Positions 13,376 through 45,907 of a DNA stretch of 64,000 nucleotides are shown in pieces. The translations under genes were made by a program, and so were the position numbers. Within the stretch, counting starts at the first letter, position 1, and each line of letters starts with the position of its first letter. Origin of the DNA: Bradyrhizobium canariense. Its GTDB lineage: Bacteria > Pseudomonadota > Alphaproteobacteria > Rhizobiales > Xanthobacteraceae. The notes beneath the pieces were generated by a model, which was not told the DNA's origin, did no database searches, and saw only the letters and a list, made by a program, of their open reading frames with translations. The stretch covers positions 3,038,001-3,102,000 of the forward strand of contig NZ_LT629750.1 in the NCBI RefSeq assembly GCF_900105125.1, read 5' to 3'.

Positions 13376-13607
13376 GCGGAAACCTCCCCGGCTTCGGATG
13401 AGCAGTGCGCCGTCGGCGACGCGAGCTGAATTCGTTGCCACGCAGTTTCGGTAAACGATATCATTGAATGCCCGAATTTGATTTGCGACCGACAGATCAT
13501 ATCGAATAATCTGCGGCAGGCCTGCTCCCGTGCGACCTTCCCGCCATCTACCGTGGCGGCGGGTCGCGAAGCAGGAAAGCGATTGCAAATCCACAAGGAG
13601 ACGCGGC

Positions 13608-14249
13608 GTGTTTTTATCGATGCGTGATTTTGCGTTATGCCTTGTGGCTGCGGCGGCCGCGTATGGGCCGCAGTCGGCCCTTGCGCTAGACCCTCGTTAT
13701 CCGGACTGGCCTTGCCAGCAATTGAAGGTGCCCGAGATTTCGATCGCAAGCGTCTGGACCGGTCCCTCGATAGAGCCGATCGACTCAACAAAGCCGACTG
13801 ACGCGAAAGAAGCAGAACTCGTAGCCCGTCTGGCTGCACGCCGCACGCCAATCGAGGAAGCCAAGAAACTCATCGCGGACTTCGTGGTCGGAACCCAGGA
13901 GGAAAAGCAGGAAAAGGCGAAGACCTTGTTCGCCGGATTATATTCGACACTCAATGGACAGCGCGATGAGGTAATGAATGGGATCGAACGCTTCTCACGC
14001 AAGCAGAAGGCCATGGCCGGGGACATCCGCGAGGAAGCCCAGAAATTGCGAGACCTGCAGGACAAGGCAACCGATCAAGCGCAGAGCGAGGAACTCAGCA
14101 ACCGGCTTGCGTGGCAAACTCGCATTTTCGAGGATCGGCGGAAATCGACATCCTATGTCTGTGACGTGCCGGTCCTGATCGAGAAACGGCTGTTCGATTT
14201 GGGAACCGCGATCCAGAACGCCATGAACGACGACTCGCCCAAGAAATAA
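13608..14249 (+). CDS. Secreted alpha-helical protein of unknown function
   Basis: This protein of about 213 residues has a signal peptide (to about ALA-LDP) and a mature part dominated by charged helices (EAELVARLAARR, then EEAQKLRDLQDKATDQ), probably a coiled coil. Two cysteines, in WPCQQL near the N-terminus and YVCDVP near the C-terminus, could form a disulphide. The GTG at 13608 is preferred because AAGGAG lies seven bases before it; an ATG at 13620 is the alternative. It stands alone on the plus strand between the glycosidase and the xox operon. I do not recognise a named family. A periplasmic structural or chaperone role in quinoprotein maturation is possible but only a guess from position. 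Confidence 0.75.
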   Translation: MFLSMRDFALCLVAAAAAYGPQSALALDPRYPDWPCQQLKVPEISIASVWTGPSIEPIDSTKPTDAKEAELVARLAARRTPIEEAKKLIADFVVGTQEEKQEKAKTLFAGLYSTLNGQRDEVMNGIERFSRKQKAMAGDIREEAQKLRDLQDKATDQAQSEELSNRLAWQTRIFEDRRKSTSYVCDVPVLIEKRLFDLGTAIQNAMNDDSPKK

Positions 14250-21537: not shown

Positions 21538-21874
21538 CGGCCCATCCGTTATTGTGTTCAATGGAATGACGAAGTTACGCAACATCATTCGAATAATTTG
21601 TCAGGATCAACAATCGAGGTCAAGCTCGCACGCGGGCAGTACTTTCGGCGGTGAAGCTAGCATTTCGTCGTAGCGTGCAGCGTGATGCGTATTGTCGTGG
21701 ACCTTGCTGCAAAAAATGCGGTAGGTTAAACGGCCAATATCGAAACCCCGGAGTCTGCGCGTCTAAAATGACCGGCATGACGCATTGCAACCGCAGCCGA
21801 TGGCGCGACTCACAGGGTTCTGCACTATTTGCCTGTCGGTCCCGTCGATGGATGCCGGGATTTTGGGAATGGTC

Positions 21875-22651
21875 ATGAAGCCATTCGAACTTGCTCAAAC
21901 TCCTGCGCTTGAAATCGACCGCGTCAGCCATCGCTATGGTGCACGGGTCGCGTTGAATGATGTAAGCTTTGCCGTCCGGCAGTCGTCCTTTACGGTTCTA
22001 TTGGGGTTGAATGGCGCCGGAAAGTCGACGCTATTTTCGTTGATCACGCGCCTCTATGCGATCCGATCAGGCCAAATTCGCATTTTTGGCCACGATGTTG
22101 CGAACGAGCCGGGCGCGGCCTTGAGCAAGCTCGGCGTGGTTTTTCAGTCGCGCGCGCTCGATATCGATATTTCGGTTCGGCAGAACCTGATGTACCACGC
22201 TGCACTGCACGGCATCGCCAGCAAGCGCGCCAACGAACGCATCGCACAAGTCCTGGACCGCGTGGCAATGACCGATCGGAGCCGGGACCGCGTCGGGAAT
22301 CTTTCCATCGGGCAGATGCGCCGGATCGAGATTGCCCGCGCCCTGCTCCACCAACCCCGCCTGCTTTTGCTGGACGAGCCGACGGTCGGCCTCGACATCA
22401 AGGCGCGCGCCGACATTCTCGATCACGTTCGCCAGTTGTCCGTGACGGAGGGAATTGGCGTGCTCTGGGCGACACATCTCATCGACGAAGCCCGTTCAGG
22501 CGACGACGTAGTGGTGCTCCACAAAGGCAGCGTGCTTGCGCGTGGTGCAATCAGCGATGTTGTCGGACAATCCGGAGGGGCCGATTTGCGAGAAGCATTC
22601 AATCGGCTGACAGGGGTTGCCGATCAGGGCGAACTGGAAGCAGCCAGATGA
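21875..22651 (+). CDS. ABC transporter ATPase of the PQQ-dependent alcohol dehydrogenase system
   Basis: This 258-residue ATPase belongs to the ABC-2 (drug/polysaccharide export) branch and matches the family tied to PQQ-dependent alcohol dehydrogenase systems. Walker A is GLNGAGKST, the Q-loop is VVFQSRALD, the signature is LSIGQMRR (Ile in place of the usual Gly) and Walker B is LLLLDEPTVGLD. Its stop overlaps the permease start (ATGA at 22648-22651). The ATG at 21875 is preceded by GGGA; upstream in-frame ATGs at 21845 and 21869 are possible. In Pseudomonas the equivalent genes sit by pedABC-type alcohol genes. Exported substrate unknown. Confidence 0.92.
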   Translation: MKPFELAQTPALEIDRVSHRYGARVALNDVSFAVRQSSFTVLLGLNGAGKSTLFSLITRLYAIRSGQIRIFGHDVANEPGAALSKLGVVFQSRALDIDISVRQNLMYHAALHGIASKRANERIAQVLDRVAMTDRSRDRVGNLSIGQMRRIEIARALLHQPRLLLLDEPTVGLDIKARADILDHVRQLSVTEGIGVLWATHLIDEARSGDDVVVLHKGSVLARGAISDVVGQSGGADLREAFNRLTGVADQGELEAAR

Positions 22652-23493
22652 CCACGACCGTCGACGTGACAGACAAACACAACTTCACGCTGGCGCAGTA
22701 CTTCATCTGTCTCAGGGGCATCGTCTGGCGTGAAGCCCTGCGCTTTATCCATCAGCGTGAACGCTTCGTTTCTGCGCTTGTGCGCCCGCTGGTCTGGCTT
22801 TTCATTTTTGCCGCCGGATTTCGACAGGTGCTCGGCGTCTCGATCATCCCGCCCTATGAGACGTATGTCCTTTACGAAGTCTATATCGCGCCGGGATTGA
22901 TTGCGATGATACAGCTCTTCAACGGCATGCAATCGTCGCTGACGATGGTGTATGACCGGGAAACCGGCGGAATGCGCACGCTTCTGGTCAGCCCGTTCCC
23001 GCGCTGGTGGCTGCTGACATCAAAGCTTTTGGCAGGCACGCTGGTCTCCGTGCTGCAGGCCTATGCTTTCCTGCTGATCGCCTGGTTCTGGGAAATCGAG
23101 CCGCCTCCCCTGGGTTATCTGGCGCTGCTGCCGGCGTTGCTGCTGAGCGGTTTCATGCTGGGCGCGTTGGGAATGCTGATTTCATCGCTGATCAAGCAGC
23201 TTGAGAATTTTGCCGGCGTCATGAACTTCGTCATCTTTCCGATGTTCTTTGCTTCCTCGGCGCTCTACCCGTTGTGGCGGGTCAAGGAATCGAGCCCGCT
23301 GCTATATTACGTATGCGAGCTCAATCCTTTCACGCATGCGACCGAGCTCATTCGCTTTGCGCTTTATGAACAGGTCGCTTGGGTTTCGCTGGCTGTCGTT
23401 GTCGGTTGCACCATCGCGTTTCTGTTTGGCGCGATATTGGCCTACGATCCGGCCCGCGGCTTCCTCGCCCGCCGCAACACGCCGGCGGGCTGA
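22648..23493 (+). CDS. ABC-2 type permease of the PQQ-dependent alcohol dehydrogenase system
   Basis: This 281-residue inner-membrane permease has about six membrane helices. Its ABC-2 features are LVSPFPRWWLLTSKLLAGTLVSVLQAYAFLLIAWF and the C-terminal YVCELNPFTHATELIRFALY. It is translationally coupled to the ATPase gene. It matches the alcohol-system permease family (PedC-like). Export is the expected direction for ABC-2 permeases. Candidate cargo includes a metallophore, a toxic by-product or a maturation factor; the sequence does not say which. The ABC-type binding protein at 37693-38895 belongs to the same family set, although binding proteins normally serve importers. Confidence 0.92.
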   Translation: MTTTVDVTDKHNFTLAQYFICLRGIVWREALRFIHQRERFVSALVRPLVWLFIFAAGFRQVLGVSIIPPYETYVLYEVYIAPGLIAMIQLFNGMQSSLTMVYDRETGGMRTLLVSPFPRWWLLTSKLLAGTLVSVLQAYAFLLIAWFWEIEPPPLGYLALLPALLLSGFMLGALGMLISSLIKQLENFAGVMNFVIFPMFFASSALYPLWRVKESSPLLYYVCELNPFTHATELIRFALYEQVAWVSLAVVVGCTIAFLFGAILAYDPARGFLARRNTPAG

Positions 23494-23510: not shown

Positions 23511-25928
23511 TCAGAATGTCGCCTTCAGGCCCGCATACAAAGCGCGCGGCCGCGCCGGGCTAAGCGAACGCGGGTCCGTAAACGGCGCGCCGCCATTGGT
23601 GAAGTTAGGCACTGCGTCGGTCTCGAAGAACGTTCCATAGCTCGCATATTGATTATTGAAAATATTGTCGGCGCGCGCGTAAATCTGAAACGTCTTGTTG
23701 ATCTGATAGGACGCATGCAGGTTGAAAACGGCGTAAGACGGCAGCTTCATGAACTGATTGGATCCGTCGCCGACAAAATATTGACTGCCGACGAAAAGCG
23801 CATCGCCTCCAACCTTGAACGCGTCGGTCACTGAATAGTCCACCCTGGCCTTGAGCACGTTTCGGGGAACTGCCGGGATTTGGTTGCCCGGCATAATCTG
23901 GATATTGCCATTGTCATCGGCAAACGGGCTGTTGGAACCCACCTGCAGCGCGTTGAGGAAGCGTGCGTCCAAAAACGTATAACTGGCGCTGACCAGCAGC
24001 TTGTCTGATTTGAGCGTGGCTTCGGCCTCGAAGCCCTGGCGACGGGTCGAACCGACATTCTGGAAATAGCCGAACCCCTGCAGAACTGGACTGGGAATGT
24101 TGAGAATGTCGTCCGAATTCTCCGTGCGAAACGCCCCGAATTTCCAGCTCAGCGTGCCGAGACTGAGATTCTCCGTGTCGCGCAATCCTGCTTCCACGGT
24201 ATGGGACACAACCTGTTTCAGGGGCGGATCGGAGACCAGGAATGAAGCGATGATGCAGGGATGCGCTGGATCGGCGCATCCCAGCTCCAGCGGGGTCGGC
24301 GCCCGATTTGCTTCGGAATAGCCGGCATAGGCCGTCAAGCCCGACGTGATCTTGTAGGTGCCGCCGATGACGGGATTGAAACGGGTGTAATTGTCGCTGC
24401 CATTCAGCGCGGTGCCAAGCTGGTCCTGCAAGTTGATGTTGGCGACATTGAAGCGGCCGCCGCCTGTGATCGAGAACCTGTTGGTGACGTCGAAGGTATC
24501 GAGCGCGTACAGGCCGGTGTACTGATTGGTGGTGCGAAGGTCGACCGGGCCATCGGAAACCGGATTGCCGGACTGACCAAGGAAGATTCCAGAGCCGCTG
24601 ACGACATAGTCAGGGCCGATCGTGCCCAGTTCCGCGCTGGCCGTGAAGTGGGTGACGCTATAGTCGAAGCTGGTTCCGACCACGAAGTGATTGTTGTGCC
24701 CGAACAATTGGTCGGTATTGGTCGCCTGCAGCGAGAAGCCTGTCGTCGTCGTCTGCGTCGAAGTACGGTCGTTCTCCCCAAGCGTGGCGCTGGGGTCGAA
24801 CGGATTGGAAAGCTGAGCTCCGTTCAAGCCGTTGGCCGGCGTGCTGCCGTCGCCGAAGCAAAGCAGTGTCGCATCGGCGTCACAAGGCTGGGTTCCGGTC
24901 GGATTGCCGTCCTGGGTATTCTGGTTGAAGACCCTGACATGCCCGATGCCTTCGACCGTCCAGGTTGGTGAGACCTCGACCTTCCCGGTCAAATTGACGT
25001 AACCAACTTTATTGGTCGAAGTTTGCGGCGTGGTGTAGGTGGCGCCCCAAAATTGCTGGAGCAGCTCGACTGGTGTCGTTGCGGCTGCGCCGAAATCATT
25101 GTCGGCGACGCCCATATTGATATGAAATTCAGCGTCATCGTTTTTGGCGCCGACGTCGCCATAGAAGCGCCGAACGTTGGAGGTCTGGAAATTTCGAAAT
25201 CCGTCCTCGTGCAATCCTTCGAGCGCGCCGTAGACGGCAAAATTATCGATCTGTTTGCCCCATTGTGCCGAGCTTTGGATGCGCCCGAACGAGCCTCCCA
25301 TCGTGTCGATTTCGGCCCCATGGTAGTTGAAGCCATCCTTCATCTGCACAACGACTGCCCCGCCCAGCGCGTTCAGACCGAATGCAGGATTGTTGGTCAC
25401 GATATCGACAGACTTGATTGCGGCTGTCGGAATCAGATCCCAGTTGACGGTGTCGCCGAATGCCTCGTTGATGCGCACGCCGTTCTGGTAAACGGCAAGT
25501 CCTTGCGGCGTGCCCGAAACGGGCGATGCAGTGAAGCCACGAAACTGGATATCGGGCGTGAACGGGTTGCCGTTAACTTCATTGACAGTAATGCCCGGCA
25601 CATATTTCACGAGGGAATCGCTGATGTTCAGCGATTCCGTTTGCGAGAGCTGATTGGCGTCGATGGTGTAGACGCTCGCCGCTACCTTGTCGGATTCGAT
25701 GCCGGAGCCGGCTATGGGCGTGGTCGGATATACCGCGACAGTCGGTTTGGACCGAACCCTCGGCGTCGCAGTGCGCTCGCGTCCGGGTTTGGTGCTGGGC
25801 TTCGTTCCAGTTATCACGACGGGCGGCAATACTTGTGGATCGCTGGTTGTGCTTTGCGCGTATGCCGCTTCAATCTTGGGAAACAGGCACATCGATATCG
25901 ATACAACAAGCGGATATCGCCAAAGCAT
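23511..25928 (-). CDS. TonB-dependent outer-membrane receptor, possibly for a lanthanide complex
   Basis: This 805-residue receptor has a signal peptide (to about AYA-QST), a plug domain at about residues 75-215 (VYTIDANQLSQTESLNISDSLVKYVPGI, then QFRGF) and a 22-stranded barrel ending in LYAGLKATF, with the C-terminal Phe typical of outer-membrane proteins. TonB receptors import metal chelates or other scarce solutes. Methylobacterium uses the TonB receptor LutH for lanthanide uptake, and this gene's place inside a xoxF island makes the same role plausible; that is an inference. It could instead import iron, copper or PQQ. Inverted and tandem repeats lie 110-220 bases upstream of its start. 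Confidence 0.9.
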   Translation of the reverse strand: MLWRYPLVVSISMCLFPKIEAAYAQSTTSDPQVLPPVVITGTKPSTKPGRERTATPRVRSKPTVAVYPTTPIAGSGIESDKVAASVYTIDANQLSQTESLNISDSLVKYVPGITVNEVNGNPFTPDIQFRGFTASPVSGTPQGLAVYQNGVRINEAFGDTVNWDLIPTAAIKSVDIVTNNPAFGLNALGGAVVVQMKDGFNYHGAEIDTMGGSFGRIQSSAQWGKQIDNFAVYGALEGLHEDGFRNFQTSNVRRFYGDVGAKNDDAEFHINMGVADNDFGAAATTPVELLQQFWGATYTTPQTSTNKVGYVNLTGKVEVSPTWTVEGIGHVRVFNQNTQDGNPTGTQPCDADATLLCFGDGSTPANGLNGAQLSNPFDPSATLGENDRTSTQTTTTGFSLQATNTDQLFGHNNHFVVGTSFDYSVTHFTASAELGTIGPDYVVSGSGIFLGQSGNPVSDGPVDLRTTNQYTGLYALDTFDVTNRFSITGGGRFNVANINLQDQLGTALNGSDNYTRFNPVIGGTYKITSGLTAYAGYSEANRAPTPLELGCADPAHPCIIASFLVSDPPLKQVVSHTVEAGLRDTENLSLGTLSWKFGAFRTENSDDILNIPSPVLQGFGYFQNVGSTRRQGFEAEATLKSDKLLVSASYTFLDARFLNALQVGSNSPFADDNGNIQIMPGNQIPAVPRNVLKARVDYSVTDAFKVGGDALFVGSQYFVGDGSNQFMKLPSYAVFNLHASYQINKTFQIYARADNIFNNQYASYGTFFETDAVPNFTNGGAPFTDPRSLSPARPRALYAGLKATF

Positions 25929-26167: not shown

Positions 26168-27535
26168 TTAAGAGCGCTTGCTGGTGGGAACGATGGCCTC
26201 GACAATTACCCCACTGTCGCTCGAAGCCACCGTCAGAGCACCACCCAATGCCAATACCCGCTCGCGCATTCCGGTCAGGCCGAGGCCGAGCCTGTGATCG
26301 GACCTCATCCCGCTGCCATTGTCGCGCACGCGCACCAAGGCGCACTCGCGTTTGATGCCCGCGACCTGGTCGGCGGGTTCGATGGTCACGTTGACCGAGG
26401 TCGCGCTTGCGTGACGGAACACATTCGTCAGCGCCTCCTGAACGATGCGGTAGATCGTCAGATCGGCTGTCTCTCCGGTCTCGCCAAGCGACCGCGAGAT
26501 TGCCGTCTCAACGACTACTCCTGGATGAGACTCACGCCACAGACGCACGAGAGCGCCGATGGCCTCACACAGGCCAAACTCCGCCAATCCGACCGGACGT
26601 AGCCTTTCAAGGACCCGCCGGTTGAACTGCTGCAAGGCATTTACCTGCTCCAGTAGGGCACTGCCGTGCTTTCGCAGGGTGTCCGTGTTCATCTCACGCG
26701 CGTCCGCAATCCGCATGAGCGAGCTGGCGTGGGCTCGTAGCGCGAAGAGATAAGGCCCAAATTCATCATGCAGCTCTCGGGCGATCTCCTTGCGCTCGGC
26801 ATCCTGCAGCGAAACGGCGCTTTCGGCGAGCCGCCGCTTCTCTTCGACGGCGTCTCCTAAGGTTGCCGCAAGATGATTAAGCTTGCCGCAGATCGCCGCC
26901 AGTTCGGGCGATCCGCCGGGTTTCACGCGCGTGTCGTAGCGGCCGGCTTCGATGTTCGTCATCGCCTCCGAAAGCGACTGAATTGGCGCAAGTGCCCGGC
27001 TCACCACCATCATCGTCATCAGGAAAAGCGCGACAGCGATCGCCGACCCGACCTGGAGCTGGGTGACGATGCCGTCCCAAATCTCGTTTATTTCGTCGTT
27101 CGGATGCGACGTGATCACGAGCGATCCGGGCTTGCCATGAATCGAAATCGGCACGTTCACGGCGGTCTTTTCCGGATGAACGAGCGTGACGAACCACGCC
27201 GGCGCCGGAGATGACCCGCTATCGTCGCCGGTATCGTCGGTGATTGAGGGCTTGGTCTCTACCGCATCGCCCTGCCGCGTAATACTGACGTGGCGTAGCC
27301 GGTTGAGGTCTTGAATGGTCCGACTTAGCCGCGCATCAGGATCCGGGGTTTCATTCAAACTTACGACCAATGTTTCGATAAATTCGCGAGCCAATCGTAT
27401 GACGCTCTGGTCTTCGGCCTGAACCCGAGGCCCGGCCTCCAGCACCAGCCGCGTGATATTGACGGCGAGACCGAGCATGAGAACGAGCGCGAGAAGCACG
27501 TTGAGCCGGGCTCGCAAAGATAATTTCTGCCACAT
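26168..27535 (-). CDS. MoxY-like sensor histidine kinase
   Basis: This 455-residue membrane kinase has an N-terminal membrane helix, a periplasmic region resembling the LapD/MoxY N-terminal domain (about residues 35-155), a second membrane helix (160-178), a HAMP domain (180-230) and a HisKA_3 domain with H256 in RELHDEFGPY. A HATPase domain follows, with the N-box EALTNVFRHA and the G-boxes DNGSGM and GLGLTGM. MoxY with MoxX controls methanol dehydrogenase genes in Paracoccus. The divergent response regulator at 27732-28352 is the obvious partner. Signal sensed is unknown; an alcohol, formaldehyde or metal are candidates. Confidence 0.92.
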   Translation of the reverse strand: MWQKLSLRARLNVLLALVLMLGLAVNITRLVLEAGPRVQAEDQSVIRLAREFIETLVVSLNETPDPDARLSRTIQDLNRLRHVSITRQGDAVETKPSITDDTGDDSGSSPAPAWFVTLVHPEKTAVNVPISIHGKPGSLVITSHPNDEINEIWDGIVTQLQVGSAIAVALFLMTMMVVSRALAPIQSLSEAMTNIEAGRYDTRVKPGGSPELAAICGKLNHLAATLGDAVEEKRRLAESAVSLQDAERKEIARELHDEFGPYLFALRAHASSLMRIADAREMNTDTLRKHGSALLEQVNALQQFNRRVLERLRPVGLAEFGLCEAIGALVRLWRESHPGVVVETAISRSLGETGETADLTIYRIVQEALTNVFRHASATSVNVTIEPADQVAGIKRECALVRVRDNGSGMRSDHRLGLGLTGMRERVLALGGALTVASSDSGVIVEAIVPTSKRS

Positions 27536-27731
27536 AGCATTCGTCCGGGACCCGCGCCGCGCAGATTCCTGTCCAGAGGAGCGTTGACAGGCAAAAAAGC
27601 CGGCTATCTAATTGAACCGTACAGCAATTGCACCCGAGATGCACAACGCGGTCCGCAGCGGGCGCGACGCGGTCATTCAGTCTGATGCGATGCAGCAATA
27701 GAGGTTGCCCCAAGGATTTGGACCAACGCCG

Positions 27732-28352
27732 ATGCGTGTTCTGATCGTTGACGATCATCCTATCGTGGCTTCCGGTTGCCGCGCTTTGTTCGCGGGCGAT
27801 GCCGATATGACGATACTGGAGGCCTCCGACGCGGAGAGCGGCGAGCGCGTATTTATCGCCGAACGGCCGGATGTCTGTGTGCTCGACATCAACCTGCCGA
27901 CCGTCTCGGGATTTGAACTGGCGCGGCGTATTCTCGCGCATACCGCTTCCGCGCGCATCATCATGTTCAGCATGAATGACGATCCGGTATTCGCTGCGCG
28001 CGCAATCGAGATCGGCGCCAAGGGCTATGTCTCGAAGTCCGGGGACCCATGCGACCTCGTCGAAGCCATTCGGGAAGTCGGAGACGGCAAGGTTTATTTG
28101 CCGGCGGCAATCGCACGCAGCATTGCGTTCGCTGGACCCGCTGTCGCGCAAAGCCCGCTGTCGAAACTGACGACGCGCGAAATCGAGATATTGCGCCTGC
28201 TCAGCGCCGGCAAAAGTCTTTCCGAGATCGCATGGCTGGTGCATTCGTCCTACAAGACGATTGCCAACACATCGTCCATCATCCGCCAAAAGCTCGGCCT
28301 GCGCTCGTCCTCCGAGCTGGTGCGCTTCGCAATCGAGAGCCGGCTGGTTTGA
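27732..28352 (+). CDS. MoxX-like response regulator (NarL/LuxR type)
   Basis: This 206-residue response regulator has a receiver domain with the acidic pair DD (residues 7-8), the phosphorylation site D52 (VCVLDINLP) and a conserved Lys in KGYVSKSG. A LuxR-type helix-turn-helix follows (LTTREIEILRLLSAGKSLSEIAWLVHSSYKTIANTSSIIRQKLGL). Divergent from the histidine kinase gene, with a 196-base shared promoter region. The pair probably controls the quinoprotein genes of this island, by analogy to MoxYX in Paracoccus and similar pairs in Pseudomonas alcohol regulation. The ATG at 27732 directly starts the receiver domain; an upstream ATG at 27705 is less likely. Confidence 0.93.
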   Translation: MRVLIVDDHPIVASGCRALFAGDADMTILEASDAESGERVFIAERPDVCVLDINLPTVSGFELARRILAHTASARIIMFSMNDDPVFAARAIEIGAKGYVSKSGDPCDLVEAIREVGDGKVYLPAAIARSIAFAGPAVAQSPLSKLTTREIEILRLLSAGKSLSEIAWLVHSSYKTIANTSSIIRQKLGLRSSSELVRFAIESRLV

Positions 28353-28360
28353 TCCTGGAA

Positions 28361-29122
28361 TTAGCCTTGTCTGGCGTCTTTCACAGCCTGCGCCGCCAAC
28401 GCGCGCATTTCCTCGCAGACTGATACAATGACATCGGCGCTGCGCCCTCCCCGCGGCGGCGGAAGTGTTTTCTCGAGAATGATCCGTGCCGGGCGATCGG
28501 ACAGTAAAAACAGGCGATCCGCCAGATGGACGGCCTCTTCCAGATCATGGGTCACGAACAGCGTTGTCACCTTCGCTCGCTTCGTGAGCGCCATGAGTTC
28601 GCCGCGCAGCCGGGCGGCGACAGTTTCATCGAGCGAAACGAACGGCTCGTCGAGCAGCAGAAAATCCGGCCGGACCGCAAATGCGCGGGCAATCGCCGCG
28701 CGGCGCGCAAGTCCCAGCGACAATTCGCCGGGGTATCGCGCCAGATGCGCGCCGAGGCCAAGTATCTCGACGAGATCGGTGAGATCGACGTCGGCCGGGT
28801 CGGAAGGAAGCGCTAAGCGGATGTTTTGCTCGACCGTGCGCCAAGGCAACAGGCGAGGCTCCTGAAATACCATCCCGAGGCGCCCGGATCCCGGCGCACG
28901 CAATTTGCCGCGAAAATCCGCATCGAGTCCGGCTGCAATCTTCAGGATCGTGGTCTTGCCGCAGCCGGAAGGGCCAATCAACGCACCAAATGATCCGGCC
29001 TCGAGCCGGAGCGCCAGGTCACGAACGACCTCGACTGGCGTGCCGTCGGCCGACAGGTAGCTCTTCGCATCGATGCGAAGCTCAAGCGGAGCGGCGTCTC
29101 CAGCGGTTTGCGCGTCGTTCAA
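28361..29122 (-). CDS. ABC transporter ATPase, SsuB/TauB-like
   Basis: This 253-residue ATPase is from the nitrate/sulfonate/taurine importer branch. Walker A is GPSGCGKTT, the Q-loop FQEPRLLPW and Walker B FLLLDEPF. The ABC signature is ELSLGLARR, where family members have LSGGMRQR, so it is degenerate at two positions. The start overlaps the permease gene by 41 bases. It completes a three-gene importer operon with 29082-29822 and 29826-30821. Sulfonates or other small organic anions are the normal cargo of the branch; in this island the substrate may be linked to alcohol or metal use, but nothing in the sequence fixes it. Confidence 0.88.
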   Translation of the reverse strand: MNDAQTAGDAAPLELRIDAKSYLSADGTPVEVVRDLALRLEAGSFGALIGPSGCGKTTILKIAAGLDADFRGKLRAPGSGRLGMVFQEPRLLPWRTVEQNIRLALPSDPADVDLTDLVEILGLGAHLARYPGELSLGLARRAAIARAFAVRPDFLLLDEPFVSLDETVAARLRGELMALTKRAKVTTLFVTHDLEEAVHLADRLFLLSDRPARIILEKTLPPPRGGRSADVIVSVCEEMRALAAQAVKDARQG

Positions 29123-29822
29123 GCGGTTGTACCAGAAAACTTTCGATCACAAGCATAAGCACAATGAAGCAGATCGCATAGCTCAGTATCCTGGCCATGT
29201 CGAATAGCGAGAATGCCGAGCCAAGAACGAAACCGACCCCGTTGGGCCGTCCGAGCAACTCGACCACGAGCACGATCTTCCAGACGATGGAGAGGCCGGA
29301 ACGCGAACTGGCCGCCAGATAGGGGACGAGTTGCGGTATCACGATGTGACGAATCCTCGAAAACCATGTGAATTGAAAGGCCTCCGCCATTTCATCCAGC
29401 TCGGGATCGAGCGCACGAGCCCCCTCACGCATGACGGCGGTCACGTTCGGCAGTTTATTGATTGCCACGGCGAGGATTGCCGCGGTTTCGTTGAGCCCGA
29501 TCCAGATGTAGGCGAAAATGATGATCACCAGTGCCGGCATGTTGATGAGCACGATCAGCCACGGATCGGCGAACCGATCGACGGCCTTCGAACGCCCCAT
29601 CACGTAACCTGCGATCGTGCCGAGCAGCATCGCGATCGCGAACGAACCGATCACACGTCCGAGTGTGCAGGCCATCTGGAACGGCAATTCGCCCGAGCGG
29701 ATCTCGGCGAGTGTTGCGGCGCCGATTGCCAGCGGGCCGGGCAGCAACCGCGATTGAGCCAGCGCGGCCGCGACGGCCCAAATCGCAATCATCGCAGCCA
29801 GCGAAAGAATTCTCGGCAACAA
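29082..29822 (-). CDS. ABC transporter permease, SsuC/TauC-like
   Basis: This 246-residue inner-membrane permease has about six helices and the BPD_transp_1 signature region (ALDPELDEMAEAFQFTWFSRIRHIVIPQLVPYLAASSRSGLSIVWKIVLV) where the EAA loop contacts the ATPase. This is the arrangement of the SsuC/TauC permeases. It starts four bases from the stop of the binding-protein gene and overlaps the ATPase gene at its 3' end, so the three are co-transcribed. Confidence 0.9.
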   Translation of the reverse strand: MLPRILSLAAMIAIWAVAAALAQSRLLPGPLAIGAATLAEIRSGELPFQMACTLGRVIGSFAIAMLLGTIAGYVMGRSKAVDRFADPWLIVLINMPALVIIIFAYIWIGLNETAAILAVAINKLPNVTAVMREGARALDPELDEMAEAFQFTWFSRIRHIVIPQLVPYLAASSRSGLSIVWKIVLVVELLGRPNGVGFVLGSAFSLFDMARILSYAICFIVLMLVIESFLVQPLERRANRWRRRSA

Positions 29823-29825
29823 CGC

Positions 29826-30821
29826 TCAATCTCCGCGCAGGGCTGGTCGATAATAGAGGCCTGGATCGAGCTCTTTCGAAGGGCCTGCGAGCTCCGTGCC
29901 ACCGGTCACCGCGAGGACCTTGAACAGCGCACGGGCATCGGCTTCTTCCGCGGCAATTGGCCGCTGTGGTATCCCCTCCCTCGTCCGATCTCGATAGGCC
30001 TTGAACGTCCTGTCGTCCTCGGCATGCATCAGGGGACGTAGCGCATCCCACTCCTCATCGGATCGCAGCATGATGTCGTCAGCCTTTTGCGCAGCCGCAA
30101 TAAATCGGTCGATCGCGCTCCTGTGGTCGGCTACGAACTGCTCGGAAAACACATAACCGATCAGCGCGACCGGTTCGTTCAGTCCAAGTGCTGCTTCGGC
30201 GTCGCGCACATCGAAGATCCGGCGGTAGCCCTGCGTATCCAGGCTGGCGCAGAAATTCCAGAAATTGAGGCTGGCTTCGGCTTCGCCCTGCTGCAATTTT
30301 TGGGAAATCAACGGCGGCGCACCATACTCCAGGGTCGCCTCGTGCCTGAGATCGACACCTTGGCGGGTCGCGGCGGCCTGAACGATCAGCCAGCTTTTGT
30401 CGAGCGGACCGCCTGCGACAGCGAGAACGCGGCCCTTGAGGTCTGCGATCCCATGTATGGCGGAATCGTTTTTCACCATGATGGCGCCGACCGCGCTGGA
30501 ATAAGGATAGAACAGCAATTTGGCGCCGAGGGCACGCGCACGCGCGACCCAAAGCCAATCAACGACAGCGATGTCGATCGAGCCGCTGTTGAGGGCGAGC
30601 TTGCCGGCGTCCGGCGACGCGAATTCACTGATCTTCAGATCAAGCCCGGCGCTGGCGGCAAGGTCATGGCGGCGGATCACATCCAGCTGCCAGGCAAATG
30701 TGCCAGTGCTTTGCAGGCCGATGCGCAGAGTCTCGGCGGCCCGCGTTGGCGCGACCCAGGCAACAAGACAGAGCGTCACGAGAATTTTCAACGGGTATAT
30801 CGTTCTCACTTCGCCATTCAT
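29826..30821 (-). CDS. ABC transporter periplasmic binding protein, SsuA/NMT1-like
   Basis: This 331-residue secreted protein has a signal peptide (to about TRA-AET) and the fold of NMT1/SsuA-type binding proteins (LRIGLQSTGTFAWQLDVIRRHDLAASAGLDLKISEFASPDAGKLAL). It is the first gene of the importer operon. I chose the ATG at 30821, where the signal peptide begins; the frame extends to 30881. Genes of this kind accompany quinoprotein clusters in some proteobacteria. The substrate is unknown. Confidence 0.88.
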   Translation of the reverse strand: MNGEVRTIYPLKILVTLCLVAWVAPTRAAETLRIGLQSTGTFAWQLDVIRRHDLAASAGLDLKISEFASPDAGKLALNSGSIDIAVVDWLWVARARALGAKLLFYPYSSAVGAIMVKNDSAIHGIADLKGRVLAVAGGPLDKSWLIVQAAATRQGVDLRHEATLEYGAPPLISQKLQQGEAEASLNFWNFCASLDTQGYRRIFDVRDAEAALGLNEPVALIGYVFSEQFVADHRSAIDRFIAAAQKADDIMLRSDEEWDALRPLMHAEDDRTFKAYRDRTREGIPQRPIAAEEADARALFKVLAVTGGTELAGPSKELDPGLYYRPALRGD

Positions 30822-30966
30822 GCGAGAAATTAGCTGCACTGTCCACCCGGCCAAAGGGACAAGCAAATTTGTCGCTGACACTCACCGCATCTAGGGTGCA
30901 AGGTGGCAATCTCGGCCAAGGATCGTAATAATCGCCATACCGGCCACGGCTCGTTCGGACCCCTTA

Positions 30967-31920
30967 ATGCCACGGAAGCCAGCGCGCCAATTTTGGATGC
31001 AGTGCGGTAAAACCCGACGCGGGTTCGTGCGCAGATTAGCTGTACTGGTTTGGACGGCGAAACCGGACCGAACGGCCAGATCCTGCCTGTTGCTCGCCCT
31101 CGCATTCCTTCCGACCTACGCCCGAGCAGAACCGATCGAAACCGAGCATCTGTTCGCCTTCACCATCGGAAGCGACGTGGGCGATGTCGGAGAAAGAGAG
31201 CTGGAGGGATCGGTAACCGGTCGCTTCTCGAAGCGAACCGGAACCTATGATGCGGGTTCCGGCACGATATCGGCGGAATTCGTGCCGCTGCCGAACCTTC
31301 GGACCGAATTTACCGGGGTGGTCAATTCCTACGACATTTCCGGCGTGAGCGGGTTCGCCGATCAGCGCTACACCGCGTTTGGCGGGATGTCCGCCGACGT
31401 CCGCTACCGGTTACTTGATCGCGCCTCCGCGCCGTTCGGTTTTGCAATCGGCGCCGAGCCGCATTGGAACAGGTCTGACGACATAACCGGTGAACGCGTC
31501 GGCCAATATGGCGTGGACTTCGTTGCAGCCGCCGATTGGGAAATCATTCAGGATCGGCTCGTTGCGGCGTTCAACCTGCTCTATCAACCCGATACCACGC
31601 GCTCGCAACTGACTGGAACCTGGTCGCAGGAATCCACGGCGGGGATTGCGATGGGCCTGATGGCGCAGGTCCGTTCCGGAATTTTTGTCGGCGGCGAAGC
31701 CCGTTATTTACGCCAGTATGACGGGTTTGGCCCGGATACCCTTGCTGGACAAGGCTTTTTCGTTGGGCCGACAATTTACTTCAAGCTCTCCGAACGGGCG
31801 TGGATCACAGCCGCCTGGAGCGCACAAGTCGCGGGTCACGCAACTGCCATTGCCGGTTCGCTTGACCTGGTTAATTTCGAACGTCAGCAGGCACGTCTTT
31901 TGTTCGGCGTAAACTTCTAA
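30967..31920 (+). CDS. Putative outer-membrane beta-barrel protein
   Basis: This 317-residue protein has a late signal-like hydrophobic stretch (SCLLLALAFLPTYARA-EPI, residues 38-55), so the true start may be 20-30 codons downstream of 30967. The mature part is built of alternating polar and hydrophobic strands (YDVRYRLLD-type, GIFVGGEARYLRQYDGF, GPTIYFKLSERAWITAAWSAQV) and ends in VNF, the C-terminal Phe that targets barrels to the outer membrane. I do not recognise a named family. It is convergent with the EF-loop protein at 31944-32285 and divergent from the SsuABC-like operon. A channel for the island's substrate is possible. Confidence 0.78.
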   Translation: MPRKPARQFWMQCGKTRRGFVRRLAVLVWTAKPDRTARSCLLLALAFLPTYARAEPIETEHLFAFTIGSDVGDVGERELEGSVTGRFSKRTGTYDAGSGTISAEFVPLPNLRTEFTGVVNSYDISGVSGFADQRYTAFGGMSADVRYRLLDRASAPFGFAIGAEPHWNRSDDITGERVGQYGVDFVAAADWEIIQDRLVAAFNLLYQPDTTRSQLTGTWSQESTAGIAMGLMAQVRSGIFVGGEARYLRQYDGFGPDTLAGQGFFVGPTIYFKLSERAWITAAWSAQVAGHATAIAGSLDLVNFERQQARLLFGVNF

Positions 31921-31943: not shown

Positions 31944-32285
31944 TTATTTGGCGCAGTCCTTCAGGTCTTTCTCGTCGATCGAGAAGATCGCGCCGGTCTT
32001 GACCTGAATGTTTGGAACCACGCAAGTCCGCCCGATCTTGTCGACAAACTTGACGTCATAAACACCTGCGGCCGTGTCGGTAATCTTCAGCCGCTCGTCA
32101 TGATCCACGGTATGATCGTTATCATTGTCGGTCTGATTGCGGCCCCACTCATTCTTGCCAGGCGGCGAGAGCTGCAGCGAAGTAATTGTGTTAGCAGTCA
32201 AATTCCAGAACCGGGTATCCTTTGCGGAAGCGCCCACGGGGATGAACGCCAAAACGAAGGCCGCCAGAACAACTACCCTCGCCAT
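31944..32285 (-). CDS. Small periplasmic protein with an EF-hand-like metal loop
   Basis: This 113-residue protein has a signal peptide (to about ASA-KDT, residue 22). The mature 91-residue part contains DNDNDHTVDHDE at residues 53-64. Its acidic residues fall at loop positions 1, 3, 5, 9 and 12 (D53, D55, D57, D61, E64), with Val at 8, exactly the pattern of an EF-hand calcium loop. Asp at position 9 is a feature of lanmodulin, the lanthanide-binding protein. Position 6 is His where EF-hands have Gly, and helices around the loop are not obvious, so it may be an EF-loop in a beta-rich domain. Two Cys (in RTCVV and KDCAK) could pair. The ATG at 32285 is chosen over 32306. Metal binding is inferred; no family function is known to me. 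Confidence 0.82.
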   Translation of the reverse strand: MARVVVLAAFVLAFIPVGASAKDTRFWNLTANTITSLQLSPPGKNEWGRNQTDNDNDHTVDHDERLKITDTAAGVYDVKFVDKIGRTCVVPNIQVKTGAIFSIDEKDLKDCAK

Positions 32286-36435: not shown

Positions 36436-37419
36436 TCAATTCGGACCAAAGGCAACACCCCACGGCAATTCGCCTACCTGAATGGATTTGATGACTTTCT
36501 GGGCCGCTACGTCGATTACCGAAACGTCGTTCGAAACACCATTGGCGACCAGCAGGTATTTTTCATCGGGCGTAAAGGCGCCGTGCCAAACCCGCTGTCC
36601 GACCAGCAGGTATTTCAAGACGGTATGAGTGACGCCGTCGACGACCGCCACTCGATTGGCGGGCCCCAAATCGATGAATCCGAGCTTGCCATCCCTGGTG
36701 ATATTGATACCGACCGGCTGGATCGCCTCCGATCGCAGGCCCGGGATTTCAAACGTTACGGTTTGCTTGAGCTGACGTGTTGCAGGATCGATAATCGCAA
36801 GCGCGCCACCGATTTCGGACGTGACCCATAATTCCGACCCGTCGGACTTGTACTCCGAGAAGCGCGGGCGGGAACCGACCAGCAGGTTGCCGACGACTTC
36901 GCGGCTCGCCGTATCGATGAAGTGGACCATGCTGGTCGTCTCGGACGTGCATACCAGCATCTTGGAATCCGGGCTGACCGCCATGCCTTCGGGTTCGGTC
37001 CCGACCGACACCTGGCCAATGGCCGTGCGTTTTTCCATATCGATGACGGTCACCATCGCGTCGTTTTCGTTGGCGACATAGAGAAACTTGCCGGCCGGAT
37101 CGAGTGCAAACTGCTCAGGATCCGGGCCGGACGGCAAGTTGCCGGCATCGCTACGGGTCTTGGCGTCGAAGACCTGGATGGTGTCGTCGTCGCCAAGCGC
37201 GACAAAGACGAATTTACCGTCGCGGGTGACCTCGATACCGCGCGGCCGCTGCCCCGTCTTGATGGTCGCGACGGTCTCCATCTTGTCGGTGTCGATCACG
37301 GAGATCGAATTGCCCTTCTCGTTGGAAACATAGGCAAGGAAGGCGAAAGCAGGATCAAACGAGAGAAGAACGCCGAACAGGGAAAGGCCGAGTACCGCGA
37401 TCCAGCGCAAATCGAACAT
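36436..37419 (-). CDS. PQQ-dependent catabolism-associated beta-propeller protein
   Basis: This 327-residue secreted protein (signal peptide to about AFA-FLA) consists of YVTN-type beta-propeller repeats, for example VSNEKGNSISVIDTDKMETVATIKTGQRPRGIEVTRDGKFVFVA, repeated about every 42 residues, giving seven blades. It matches the family called PQQ-dependent catabolism-associated beta-propeller protein. There are no catalytic or metal residues I can name. It is divergent from the ABC binding-protein gene of the same family set. Probably a periplasmic scaffold or electron-transfer helper, by inference. Confidence 0.92.
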   Translation of the reverse strand: MFDLRWIAVLGLSLFGVLLSFDPAFAFLAYVSNEKGNSISVIDTDKMETVATIKTGQRPRGIEVTRDGKFVFVALGDDDTIQVFDAKTRSDAGNLPSGPDPEQFALDPAGKFLYVANENDAMVTVIDMEKRTAIGQVSVGTEPEGMAVSPDSKMLVCTSETTSMVHFIDTASREVVGNLLVGSRPRFSEYKSDGSELWVTSEIGGALAIIDPATRQLKQTVTFEIPGLRSEAIQPVGINITRDGKLGFIDLGPANRVAVVDGVTHTVLKYLLVGQRVWHGAFTPDEKYLLVANGVSNDVSVIDVAAQKVIKSIQVGELPWGVAFGPN

Positions 37420-37692: not shown

Positions 37693-38895
37693 ATGCATTG
37701 GAGGCTTGATTTGCTCCGGCTTCTGATTGGCGTCTTCGCATTGATCGCATTGAGCGGAACCGGCCTGTCCGATCAACCGCTGGAAATCAAGATCGGCTAC
37801 ATTCATCAAGCCCCATCCCGGATCAGGATATCCCTGATCGACGTACCGGCCGCCAATGATGGCCTTGCCGGCGCGCAATTGGCGATCGACGACGATAACG
37901 CCACCGGACGCTTCCTCAACCAGCGGTACACCCTGCTCGAGAAATTGGTCGGCGAGAACGACGATCCGGTCGCGGCCATGAATTCGCTCGCCGACCAGGG
38001 AGCGTCATTCATCGTAACGAGCCTTGACGCGGACCGGCTGCTGAAGACCGCGGATGCCGGCAAGGCGCGCGGCGAGACGTTCATCAATGCATTTGCGCTG
38101 GATGAACGCCTGCGTGAGCAGGATTGCCGCGCCAATGTGATTCATGTCGCGCCGACGCGTTCCATGCTCGCCGACGGGCTTGCGCAGTACCTGGTCTGGA
38201 AGAAGTGGCGCAAATGGATGCTGATCGTAGGATCCCACGAAAAGGATGGGCTGTTCGCTGACGCGCTACGTCACGCCGCGACACGCTTCGGCGCCAAGAT
38301 CGTTGATGAGCGGGTGTTCAAGGACAACGGCGGAGCGCGGCGGACCGACAGCGGCGTCGCCGAGATTCAGCAGCAGATGCCGGTCGTAACGCAAGGCGCG
38401 TCCGACCACGATGTGCTGGTTGCGGCCGATGAAAGCGAGGTCTTTGCGGGCTATCTGCCGTATCGGACATGGGATCCTCGTCCGGTCGCGGGCTCCGCCG
38501 GACTCGTTCCTACCACATGGGATGCGGCGTTCGATCAATGGGGTGCCGTGCAGTTGCAGAACCGGTTTACAAAAACGTTCCAGCGCTCGATGACGGCGCA
38601 TGACATGCAGGTTTGGACGGCGGTTCGCATGATCGGCGAAGCCGCGGCCAGATCCAGCTCCGGCGAGCCCGGCAAGATGCTAGCTTATATGAAAAGCCCG
38701 GAATTCTCAGTTGCCGCCTTCAAAGGGCAAAAACTGACACTGCGCGACTGGAACCTGCAGTTGCGGCAGCCAATCCTGTTGTTCGACGGCAGGAACACGG
38801 TATCCGTGTCGCCCCAAGACGGTTTCCTTCATCAGGTATCGACGCTCGATACGCTTGGTTTGGATCGTCCGGAAACCAAGTGCACGCTGAAGTGA
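37693..38895 (+). CDS. ABC-type substrate-binding protein of the PQQ-dependent alcohol dehydrogenase system
   Basis: This 400-residue secreted protein (signal peptide to about LSGTGLS-DQP) has the Leu/Ile/Val-binding type fold. It matches the PQQ-dependent alcohol dehydrogenase system binding-protein family (EIKIGYIHQAPSRIRISLIDVP, VAPTRSMLADGLAQYLVWKKWRKWMLIVG). The cognate ATPase and permease are at 21875-23493, 14 kb away. The promoter region is shared with the divergent propeller gene. The ligand is unknown; alcohols or aldehydes have been proposed only by association. Confidence 0.92.
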   Translation: MHWRLDLLRLLIGVFALIALSGTGLSDQPLEIKIGYIHQAPSRIRISLIDVPAANDGLAGAQLAIDDDNATGRFLNQRYTLLEKLVGENDDPVAAMNSLADQGASFIVTSLDADRLLKTADAGKARGETFINAFALDERLREQDCRANVIHVAPTRSMLADGLAQYLVWKKWRKWMLIVGSHEKDGLFADALRHAATRFGAKIVDERVFKDNGGARRTDSGVAEIQQQMPVVTQGASDHDVLVAADESEVFAGYLPYRTWDPRPVAGSAGLVPTTWDAAFDQWGAVQLQNRFTKTFQRSMTAHDMQVWTAVRMIGEAAARSSSGEPGKMLAYMKSPEFSVAAFKGQKLTLRDWNLQLRQPILLFDGRNTVSVSPQDGFLHQVSTLDTLGLDRPETKCTLK

Positions 38896-43449: not shown

Positions 43450-45177
43450 TCACTTCTTGACGGCGAACACCCAAACGACGCCGCCCTGAGGCACGTTATT
43501 TTCGATCCCGACGTTATCGCCGGCCAGCGCGTCCTGGATGCGCTGTGCATCGACGCCCCAACCGGATTGAATGGCGATATATTCGGTACCATCCACTTCA
43601 TAGGCCATCGGCATGCCCATGATTCCCGAGTTGGTCTTCTGCTCCCAAAGCACTTCACCTGTCTTGGCATCGAAGGCCCGGAAATACCGGTCGTTGGTGC
43701 CTCCGGCAAAGACGAGATCGCCCGCGGTCGCCGTCACCGAACCGAACATCTGCGACTTGGCGAAGTTGTGCGACCATGCCTTCTTGCCGGTGGCCGGATC
43801 CCACGCCTGCAGCTCGCCGAAATGATCGGCGCCGGGACGCACCGACAGGCCGATATCTTCGGGCTTGGTCCCGAGCCAAAGCTGGCCGGGAACCAGTGGC
43901 ACTTTCTCGCCGGTAAAGCCGCCGCAGAAATTCTCGTTGGCGGGAACGTAGACCAATCCGGTTTTCTGGCTATAGGCTGCGGACGGCCAATCCTTGCCGC
44001 CCCACAAAGACGGACAGAAATCAACCCGCTTGCCGAGCGTGGGTTTATGGTCGGGATCGACGATCGGCTTGCCGGTCTCCGCTTCGATGCCTTTCCAGAC
44101 ATCGGTATGAACGAAAGGCCAGCCCGCGACGTAATTGATCCGGTCGGGTTTACGCTCCAGTACCCAGAAGATCGCATCGCGTCCCGGATGGATCAGGCTC
44201 TTGAAAGAGCGGCCATCCCTCTGCAGGTCGATCAGCATGGGCGCATCCACCTCGTCCCAATCCCATGAATCATTTTGATGGTACTGGTGGAATGCCTTGA
44301 TCTTGCCGGTATCGGGATCGAGCCCGAGCACGGAGCTCGTATAGAGGTTGTCACCGGGGTGGAGTCCACCGGGCCAGGGTGCGGCGTTGCCGACGCCCCA
44401 ATAAATCGTCTTGGTGTCCGTGTCGTAGGTACCGGTCATCCAGGCGGATCCGCCGCCCGATTTCCAATCGTCTCCGCTCCACGTGTCATGGCCGGGTTCG
44501 CCTTCGCCGGGGATGGTGAAAGTCCGCCATAGTTCCTTGCCATCGTTGGCGTCGAACGCGACGACGTAGCCACGAACGCCAAACTCGCCACCGGATCCAC
44601 CGACGACAACTTTTCCGTCAACGATCAACGGCATCAGGGTCATGTACTGACCCTTCTTGTAGTCCTGGACCTTCTTGTCCCAGACCACCTTGCCGGTCTT
44701 GGCGTCGAGCGCGACGACATGATCGTCCGTCGTGGCGAGATATAATTTGTCCTGCCACAATCCGACGCCGCGGCTGGTCGGGTGCAATTGAAAGAGATCA
44801 TCGGGAAGCTGGCGTTTGTACCGCCAGTACTCGTCGCCGGTCTTGGCGTTAAGGGCGATCACCTGCCCCATCGGCGTGGCGACGAACATCACGCCATTGT
44901 TGACGATCGGCGGCGCCTCGTGTCCTTCGATAACCCCGGTGGAGAAGGTCCACACCGGTGTCAGGCCTTTGACGTTGGAGGTGTTGATCTGGTCGAGCGG
45001 GCTATAGCCCTGCCCGTCATAAGTCCGTCGATAAAGCATCCAGTTGCCGGGTTCTGGATTTTCGAGACGGCTGGATGTCACCGGGCTGTAATTCTCGATC
45101 GGGCCGGCGACGGCGGCGGTAGAAATAAGGCAAGTGAACGCGACAAAGCTCGACAATAGCCACTGCTTCTTGGTCAT
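43450..45177 (-). CDS. PQQ-dependent dehydrogenase lacking the vicinal cysteines
   Basis: This 575-residue periplasmic quinoprotein has a signal peptide (to about AVA-GPI). Metal ligands E198 (GGEFGVRG), N264 (GVGNAAPW), D306 and D308 (SWDWDEVD) keep the lanthanide pattern. The neighbouring cysteine pair that touches PQQ in the other three enzymes is absent: the segment reads DDLFQLHPTSRG, with Leu131-His132 in that place. The ATG at 45177 follows GGGAGGTAGCG. It is preceded on the same strand by a Rieske protein gene. It resembles ExaF/PedH-like enzymes in motifs, so ethanol or another alcohol is possible. Confidence 0.93.
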   Translation of the reverse strand: MTKKQWLLSSFVAFTCLISTAAVAGPIENYSPVTSSRLENPEPGNWMLYRRTYDGQGYSPLDQINTSNVKGLTPVWTFSTGVIEGHEAPPIVNNGVMFVATPMGQVIALNAKTGDEYWRYKRQLPDDLFQLHPTSRGVGLWQDKLYLATTDDHVVALDAKTGKVVWDKKVQDYKKGQYMTLMPLIVDGKVVVGGSGGEFGVRGYVVAFDANDGKELWRTFTIPGEGEPGHDTWSGDDWKSGGGSAWMTGTYDTDTKTIYWGVGNAAPWPGGLHPGDNLYTSSVLGLDPDTGKIKAFHQYHQNDSWDWDEVDAPMLIDLQRDGRSFKSLIHPGRDAIFWVLERKPDRINYVAGWPFVHTDVWKGIEAETGKPIVDPDHKPTLGKRVDFCPSLWGGKDWPSAAYSQKTGLVYVPANENFCGGFTGEKVPLVPGQLWLGTKPEDIGLSVRPGADHFGELQAWDPATGKKAWSHNFAKSQMFGSVTATAGDLVFAGGTNDRYFRAFDAKTGEVLWEQKTNSGIMGMPMAYEVDGTEYIAIQSGWGVDAQRIQDALAGDNVGIENNVPQGGVVWVFAVKK

Positions 45178-45253
45178 GGACGCTACCTCCCTGTTTCGTT
45201 GTTTTTCACCCAATTTTATGGTTGTGCAGAAATCCAATATGACGGCGCCACCG

Positions 45254-45907
45254 TCACCCTGGCTGAGCACCTACCTTTCCAACAAATGTTGCAGCCACGA
45301 CGAGCGAACCGTCGGTAATCACCAACGGCAACGCCGCCAGGCGCCGGGGCGCGGGCCCGAACACGACTTCGGCGCCTTGCCGGGGATCATATTCGGAATT
45401 GTGGCAGACGCATTTGAAAACGTCCTTGTCGCCGTTTTCCGCTTTTACCCAGGCGGTGACAGGACATCCCGCATGCGCACAAATGGCTGAATAGGCGACG
45501 ATGCCGTCGGCCGAATGCGCGCGCGTTTCATCGTCAAGTTCGCCCGGATCAAGTTTGACTATCAGGAGCTCGTTCAACCGCGAGCCTTTGCGGATCACAG
45601 ACGTTTTCGGATCCTTTGGCCAGGCGTGCACCGGAGGCCCGCCGGACTTTAAATCCCCGGGCTTGATGACTTCGCCGGCATGGTCCCCTTCGGTGAAAAC
45701 GAGCAGATCAGCCTTTTGCGGTCGCTCATCACTGCCGGGCTGATCCTCGTCCGCGGCGGCCACATTGGCCGTCGCCAGGCAGGCGCCACTCGCGAGCGCC
45801 GCCAGGATCAGCGAGCGCCGCGTCTGATCCGGACAGAGCATGGCTGTCTTCGGTTCTGCGACACCAAATGAGATCGACGTTGCAATGTCGTGCTTGGATT
45901 TAGACAT
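45254..45907 (-). CDS. Rieske [2Fe-2S] protein
   Basis: This 217-residue protein has an N-terminal region with RRSLILAALASGACLA, a likely Tat or membrane anchor, and a C-terminal Rieske domain with the cluster motifs CAHAGC and CHNSEYDP. It is exported and would carry electrons in the periplasm. It lies 76 bases upstream of the quinoprotein gene on the same strand, which makes it that enzyme's possible acceptor. The pairing of a Rieske protein with a quinoprotein is unusual. The ATG at 45907 is chosen over 45937, as the leader begins there. Confidence 0.9.
   Translation of the reverse strand: MSKSKHDIATSISFGVAEPKTAMLCPDQTRRSLILAALASGACLATANVAAADEDQPGSDERPQKADLLVFTEGDHAGEVIKPGDLKSGGPPVHAWPKDPKTSVIRKGSRLNELLIVKLDPGELDDETRAHSADGIVAYSAICAHAGCPVTAWVKAENGDKDVFKCVCHNSEYDPRQGAEVVFGPAPRRLAALPLVITDGSLVVAATFVGKVGAQPG

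Follow-up and report, generated by a model that had tools for sequence, protein, structure and literature searches.

The small gene on the minus strand at 31944..32285 of the window (the whole 64,000-nucleotide stretch that was analysed) is best read as encoding a new accessory protein of the lanthanide cluster that probably resides in the periplasm, probably binds metal and is perhaps a partner of lanmodulin. Its minus-strand frame, which is supported by homologues, translates into 113 residues; the plus-strand frame at the same place gives another product. By inspection, residues 1-21 (32223..32285, minus strand) form a signal-like hydrophobic stretch with ASA at its end, and the protein is probably exported to the periplasm. 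With a cut before K22, also placed by inspection, the mature protein has 92 residues rather than the 91 of the initial annotation, a mass of about 10.3 kDa and a calculated pI of 5.6.

An EF-type loop (DNDNDHTVDHDE, residues 53-64, encoded at 32094..32129 of the minus strand) carries the family motif NDxDxxVDHDERL, as seen from translation and conservation. The minus-strand translation confirms the loop as annotated initially, with acidic residues at positions 1, 3, 5, 9 and 12 and Val at position 8. Position 11 is also acidic and is better conserved than position 1. Across the six-frame segments of the window that are at least 40 residues long (94,656 residues), the strict pattern D.D.D...D..E is found a single time, at this very loop, which bears out the earlier description of a single loop as against the several of lanmodulin. 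When the mature protein is shuffled 20,000 times, the same pattern arises in 15 cases. Therefore, the loop is unusual by composition, though not impossible.

Conservation was assessed on 211 rows comprising 210 unique sequences, with the window protein as P0002; L001 (equal to P0002), L016, L018 and L099-L109 were left out as duplicates or distant, and the distant homologues L014, L015 and L017, which failed the tblastn step, also lie outside the set. Residues D55, D63, E64, R65 and L66 are invariant across the 210 sequences, as are C88 and C111, and W27, N28, L29 and T30. D61 is kept in 209 (the single change is to Glu) and D57 in 208, so that acids occupy positions 3, 5 and 12, by which EF-hand loops are judged, in 210, 208 and 210 of 210 sequences. 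Residue 54 (position 2) is Asn in 207 and Pro in none, in agreement with the initial annotation, which had remarked on the missing Pro. Among the 128 sequences of the window's clade, 127 have Asp at position 1 (residue 53) and one has Glu; the 82 sequences outside it have Leu (70), Lys (9), Ala (2) or Gln (1), and none is acidic. Of the acidic positions that the initial annotation proposed to check by aligning homologues, 3, 5, 9 and 12 (and also 11) are conserved, whereas position 1 is acidic only in the window's clade. The search patterns for the 80 named loci (the best 80 of 197) contained the motif, and conservation among these loci is therefore partly built in. The 12 strong homologues from the order sample, recognised by whole-protein similarity, have D55, D63, E64, R65 and L66 in 12 of 12 and D57 and D61 in 11 of 12; among them, only the window's own gene has Asp at position 1. 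Distant homologues carry other loops, for example GVKDGALDNGRT in L016 and GDNSLENGMT in L017, so that having all of the acids sets this subfamily apart.

Position 1 of an EF-hand loop is usually acidic. One lanmodulin is described with Asn there in the available part of PMC11845868. In the AlphaFold2 (AF2) model, pLDDT is 96-98 across the loop and low over the signal-like stretch, and the protein is beta-rich, as had been guessed from the sequence. A short helix (residues 51-54) stands ahead of the loop, a bridge is formed at residue 60 (position 8), and a strand (residues 65-67) follows. The strand takes the place of an exit helix, so that the loop is not flanked by a helix on either side as in an EF-hand. 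The variable position 1 and the missing exit helix speak against a standard EF-hand. Membership in the EF-hand family, which an EF loop would suggest, is not borne out, as the Pfam EF-hand models give no match to P0002 up to E 10. One relative (L026) matches EF-hand_5 at E 0.084, below the cut-off, and no EF-hand model is among the families matched by the 17 members of profile A1.

The nearest folds among the best 50 rows of each fold list are X-modules and transthyretin-like domains (2mca, 4wi0, and 5aq0). These beta-sandwiches are weak matches that differ from the small protein in sequence (12-18% identity), with no metal loop seen in common, and the likeness may reflect a common arrangement alone. 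Neither lanmodulin nor another lanthanide-binding structure is among the best 50 rows of each list, an absence that says little.

Beyond the loop, no Pfam or NCBIfam model scores above its cut-off for the small protein or its family, including the 17 members of profile A1. A Pfam match (EVI2A, E 0.026) and an NCBIfam match (NqrC, E 0.036) are far below cut-off and were taken as chance, as were hits in the PDB to Prp8 (E 0.8) and to nitrile hydratase (E 1.7). A database search returns 2,049 homologues at E 0.001, of which the best 120 are mostly nameless or labelled 'hypothetical protein'. The label 'V8-like Glu-specific endopeptidase' on some homologues (P0006, P0012, P0024, and others) finds no support in the family searches and is apparently a wrong name.

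The invariance of residues that are not acidic bears on whether the loop holds a metal at all. R65 and L66 vary no more than the invariant acids do, and neither do W27, N28, L29, and T30; position 1 is non-acidic outside the window's clade, the EF-hand models miss the protein, and the gene has an operon-like link with an ABC transporter (see below). All this would suit a protein that belongs to the lanthanide/PQQ system and binds no metal, its acidic DERL loop docking onto a partner such as XoxG, the NMT1-type binding protein or lanmodulin. We consider such docking rather improbable, since the spacing of D55, D57, D61 and E64, together with Thr/Val at positions 7 and 8, copies a LanM loop, and since Gly is found at position 6 in some members (10 of 82 outside the window's clade and 1 of 128 inside). 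We judge it reasonably likely that the small protein binds a metal; that it prefers a lanthanide is conceivable, at clearly less than an even chance.

Of 195 genomes sampled from the window's genus, 184 carry the small gene and, likewise, 184 carry xoxF (E 1e-200). Both genes are present in 182 genomes, neither in 9, and each alone in 2, so that 191 genomes are concordant, as the initial annotation would have it when it proposed to check co-occurrence with xoxF (Fisher p 3e-12, kinship ignored). Among the discordant genomes, G281 holds the small gene with a partial xoxF at 83% identity, and G279 (1,000 contigs) and G406 (660 contigs, 72% complete) hold xoxF without the small gene and may be incomplete. 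G374 is 99% complete, has about 5 kb between its small gene and its lanM (on C206), and encodes PQQ dehydrogenases that are only 38-41% identical to XoxF; it is a real exception. G279, G406 and G374 count against a strict tie between the two genes. The nine genomes with neither gene are all 5.5 Mb or smaller and four of them are under 90% complete, so they may represent one or a few lineages.

In the order sample, 17 of 249 genomes have a match to the small gene, and 12 of these matches are strong (E at most 1.2e-23). Every one of the 12 is found in a genome with xoxF, compared with 83 of 249 genomes overall (kinship ignored; 8 of the 12 come from one family), at an xoxF threshold (E 1e-100) that also lets in other PQQ dehydrogenases. 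Among the five weak matches, L018 (G232) looks spurious, and the distant homologues L014-L017 (G208, G068, G135, and G160) are in genomes without xoxF at E 1e-30. The class sample gives matches in 8 of 385 genomes, and the three strong ones are two genomes of the window's genus and G788, which has xoxF. As for the five genomes with weak class-level matches, PQQ dehydrogenases of 38-44% identity are present in G440, G604 and G700 and absent from G599 and G760.

This distribution also weighs on which metal might be involved. In folds other than the EF-hand, a lone EF-type loop with DxDxDG is often a calcium binder. The loop here could therefore bind calcium simply to stabilise the fold, with the job of the protein in the island being something else, and the weak likeness to X-modules and transthyretin-like domains would agree with this. 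The confinement of strong homologues with the full motif to xoxF genomes of the order sample, however, is a tie to lanthanides beyond the need of a general calcium site, and we hold the purely structural calcium site to be unlikely.

The window presents a lanthanide island, as the initial annotation had stated. The gene for the methanol dehydrogenase XoxF (16384..18264, minus strand, TIGR03075) is followed on the same strand by that for a cytochrome read as xoxG (15766-16290) and by xoxJ (14846-15706, TIGR03871). Three further quinoproteins are encoded at 5971..7638 (minus strand, TIGR03075), 8175..10052 (plus strand), and 43450..45270 (minus strand, TIGR03075). TIGR03075 is thus over its cut-off for three of the four quinoproteins counted initially and marginally under it for the one at 8175..10052 (477.3 against 480.05 bits). 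All four show Asp-X-Asp (DYD, DLD, DFD, and DWD), of the kind that is typical of lanthanide-dependent enzymes.

Homologues of the lut genes surround the small gene. They were named here from NCBIfam names and from positions in two lut-like clusters that hold lanM (L154 and L158) and served as reference for the window. NCBIfam names agree for lutA (binding protein, 37693..38895, plus strand, TIGR03863), lutB (beta-propeller, 36436..37419, minus strand, TIGR03866), lutE (ABC ATPase, 21785..22651, plus strand, TIGR03864), and lutF (permease, 22648..23493, plus strand, TIGR03861). A lutG homologue by position (13584..14249, plus strand) is 35% identical to its counterpart in cluster L158, which lies between lutF and the receptor there. 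The TonB-dependent receptor (23511..25928, minus strand) is LutH-like, with 41-42% identity to the receptors of L154 and L158. It adjoins a sensor histidine kinase (26168..27535, minus strand), as in L154, and a response regulator, also as in L154, was recognised by eye at 27705..28352 on the plus strand. The lut names originate in work on Methylorubrum extorquens (PMC7391723, available part). According to the accessible text of PMC12628762, its Bradyrhizobium and Sinorhizobium strains have homologues of lutA, B, E, F and G, and the two Bradyrhizobium among them have a less similar lutH.

Between the receptor region and the small gene lies an ABC transporter of NMT1 type, with an ATPase (28361..29122, minus strand, by eye and synteny), a permease (29082..29822, minus strand, assigned by position and by eye), and a substrate-binding protein (29826..30881, minus strand, PF09084 and synteny). 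A gene for a putative outer-membrane beta-barrel of 317 residues (30967..31920, plus strand) stands tail to tail with the small gene; Pfam gives no match for it.

To describe the neighbourhood, 33 window genes (the small gene included) were searched in 91 loci, made up of the 80 named loci (the best 80 of 197) and 11 others (L099-L109) that may repeat named species. The commonest neighbours are a 119-residue protein (74 loci), the NMT1-type transporter (68-71), a SoxYZ-like carrier (66), and a metallohydrolase (65). They are followed by lutE (65), lutF (64), xoxJ (62), the putative outer-membrane protein (55), lutB (55), and xoxF (39). Some of the matches to lutE and abcA2 are other ABC ATPases of about 29-44% identity (L038, L067, L102-L104, and L107-L109). 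The 119-residue protein, encoded at 20675-21034 of the window, has a signal-like start and no family match. The NMT1-type transporter lies at 28361-30881 of the window.

Of the 57 loci between L027 and L098 in which both genes are present, 55 have the small gene downstream of the ABC ATPase gene and on its strand. The gap, estimated from tblastn ends, is 21-47 bp in 44 of the 55 and 671-1589 bp in the other 11. The short gaps suggest one operon, and the small gene is often, by all appearance, the last gene of an ABC-transporter operon. This order is broken in the window, where the outer-membrane gene, on the opposite strand, sits between the small gene and the transporter. Four order-level genomes (G174, G085, G210, and G053) and a Mesorhizobium locus show no island neighbours for about 10 kb around the small gene.

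Lanmodulin is encoded in the genome of the window, although not in the window itself (no match at E 1). The homologue has 135 residues and four EF loops, one of which has Pro at position 2, and it matches 6mi5 at E 2.8e-30. Its gene lies at G000:C1:919550-919954 (L128:1315-1719, minus strand), 2.15 Mb from the small gene. A role of the small protein in the place of lanmodulin finds no support. The resemblance of the loops and the absence of lanM from the window would fit a small protein that is lanmodulin itself or its replacement; against this stand the true homologue elsewhere in the genome, the frequency of both genes in the genus (184 and 149 of 195 genomes), and the single loop, beta-rich model and lack of any sequence match to LanM. 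This makes the identity or replacement very improbable, and since the genome encodes its own lanmodulin homologue, the small protein is not a substitute for it. The idea of a local stand-in was dropped for the same reason.

The likeness of the loops is nevertheless real, as the initial annotation had claimed. Among 215 loops from 56 distinct LanM, the best match to the window loop is DPDNDGTVDLAE (17 of the 215), with 8 of 12 letters in common; the commonest LanM loop, DTDNDGTLDLAE (30 copies), shares 7. Such letters belong to a general consensus among EF loops, and the likeness is therefore no proof of common origin. Searches of the PDB up to E 10 with P0002 or profile A1 return no lanmodulin. 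The family profile run against the frames around lanM (f42, f35, f28, and f11) and three regions of the window's own genome gives nothing better than E 0.45, and the best five of these insignificant matches around lanM are the lanM frames.

In other genomes of the genus, lanM is frequently a neighbour of the small gene. In 55 of 91 loci (52 of the 80 named and 3 of the 11 in L099-L109; some loci are too short to tell), the two are separated by 1.0-6.4 kb. In 39 of the 91, the small gene converges with the outer-membrane gene, beyond which lanM runs opposite to the direction of the small gene. The outer-membrane barrel gene is thus a candidate for another gene of the lanthanide cluster, judging by its position. 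Distances were taken from the listings of 41 single-contig genomes, in which a lanM row is given for 35 and an xoxF row for 34, the rest being left out. The small gene has lanM at no more than 10 kb in 31 of the 35 (median 2.6 kb) and xoxF at no more than 25 kb in 33 of the 34. In contrast, the available part of PMC10875860 reports lanmodulin in one Bradyrhizobium genome, where XoxF is not co-localised; in the single-contig genomes here, lanM and xoxF are mostly within 25 kb of the small gene. Together, the tie to xoxF, the lut homologues and the nearby lanM make the lanthanide link stronger than the initial annotation could know, and we regard a link of the small gene to the lanthanide system as very likely.

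A place in the cluster need not mean an essential role. In the accessible part of PMC9260416, deletion of lanM causes no growth defect on methanol in the Methylobacterium-type strains 22A and PA1, so that a strong phenotype is not necessarily expected for the small gene.

The small protein can be compared with the known lanthanide binders. With LanM of M. extorquens (6mi5) it shares the neighbourhood in many Bradyrhizobium, the loop D.DND.TVD..E, and probably the periplasmic setting. LanM, however, is helical and has four EF-hands with loops 12-13 residues apart, whereas the small protein has one loop and a predicted beta-sandwich, and no sequence homology was found. Landiscernin (LanD) is said to be encoded beside lanM, to have an incomplete surface site with four ligands, and to work with LanM. 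By analogy, a site with few protein ligands may be conceivable in the small protein. LanD, a small periplasmic lanthanide binder of M. extorquens, is named as the partner of LanM (PMC11996626, available part). No such chain is among the PDB matches of profile A1 up to E 10, though the copy of the PDB that was searched may not include LanD. LutD and LanPepSY are, according to the accessible parts of PMC7391723 and PMC12482762, further accessory proteins in the periplasm of bacteria that use lanthanides. Two PepSY domains make up part of LanPepSY (PMC12482762), in contrast to the small protein, which has no Pfam domain above cut-off.

We infer the following about export, the disulphide, metal binding, the identity of the metal and the partners. 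The small protein would be exported to the periplasm as a beta-sandwich of about 10 kDa, probably closed by a disulphide (C88-C111). Its gene stands with that of the ABC transporter, often near lanM, and alongside the lut genes and xoxF, and the protein would work in the lanthanide uptake and trafficking system of Bradyrhizobium and relatives. The loop NDxDxxVDHDERL would most likely hold a hard cation, lanthanide or calcium, which the protein may pass to, or sense for, lanmodulin, the NMT1-type transporter or the outer-membrane protein. That an exported, disulphide-closed beta-sandwich takes part in lanthanide uptake or trafficking, with its loop holding a hard cation that is passed to or sensed for its neighbours, has in our view an even chance. 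A larger claim, of a new class of lanthanide handling in which a beta-sandwich with a single EF loop and its own ABC transporter exchanges lanthanide with lanmodulin in nearly every xoxF-bearing Bradyrhizobium, is tentative and on the unlikely side.

Periplasmic metal carriage in these symbionts appears little described in the literature available. In the open-access literature searched, no description of the small-gene family was found, and a search by bradyrhizobial locus tags led to one transcriptome paper (PMC4070659), whose available part does not include the small gene. Nor does the main text of PMC12628762 mention lanmodulin. The family points to a bradyrhizobial lanM neighbourhood for which we found no earlier description. 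In the genus sample it equals xoxF in frequency (184 of 195 genomes each), and its members often stand beside lanM and carry a putative metal loop. Lanthanide binding by a loop in a beta-sandwich, if it occurs here, would offer a new scaffold for proteins that separate rare earths. If the reading of lanthanide exchange is true, the small protein would be a main undescribed part of the lanthanide pathway of legume symbionts.

Two further regions of the same genome bear on lanthanides or EF loops. The region G000:C1:1484377-1484529 (L129) encodes another protein that begins with a signal-like stretch and has several EF loops. At G000:C1:2345949-2347820 (L133) lies a second xoxF, 98-99% identical to the first, with copies of xoxG, frmA and gfa at 99-100% identity. 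Despite this second set, the genome has no second small gene. Part of the island appears to have been duplicated here recently.
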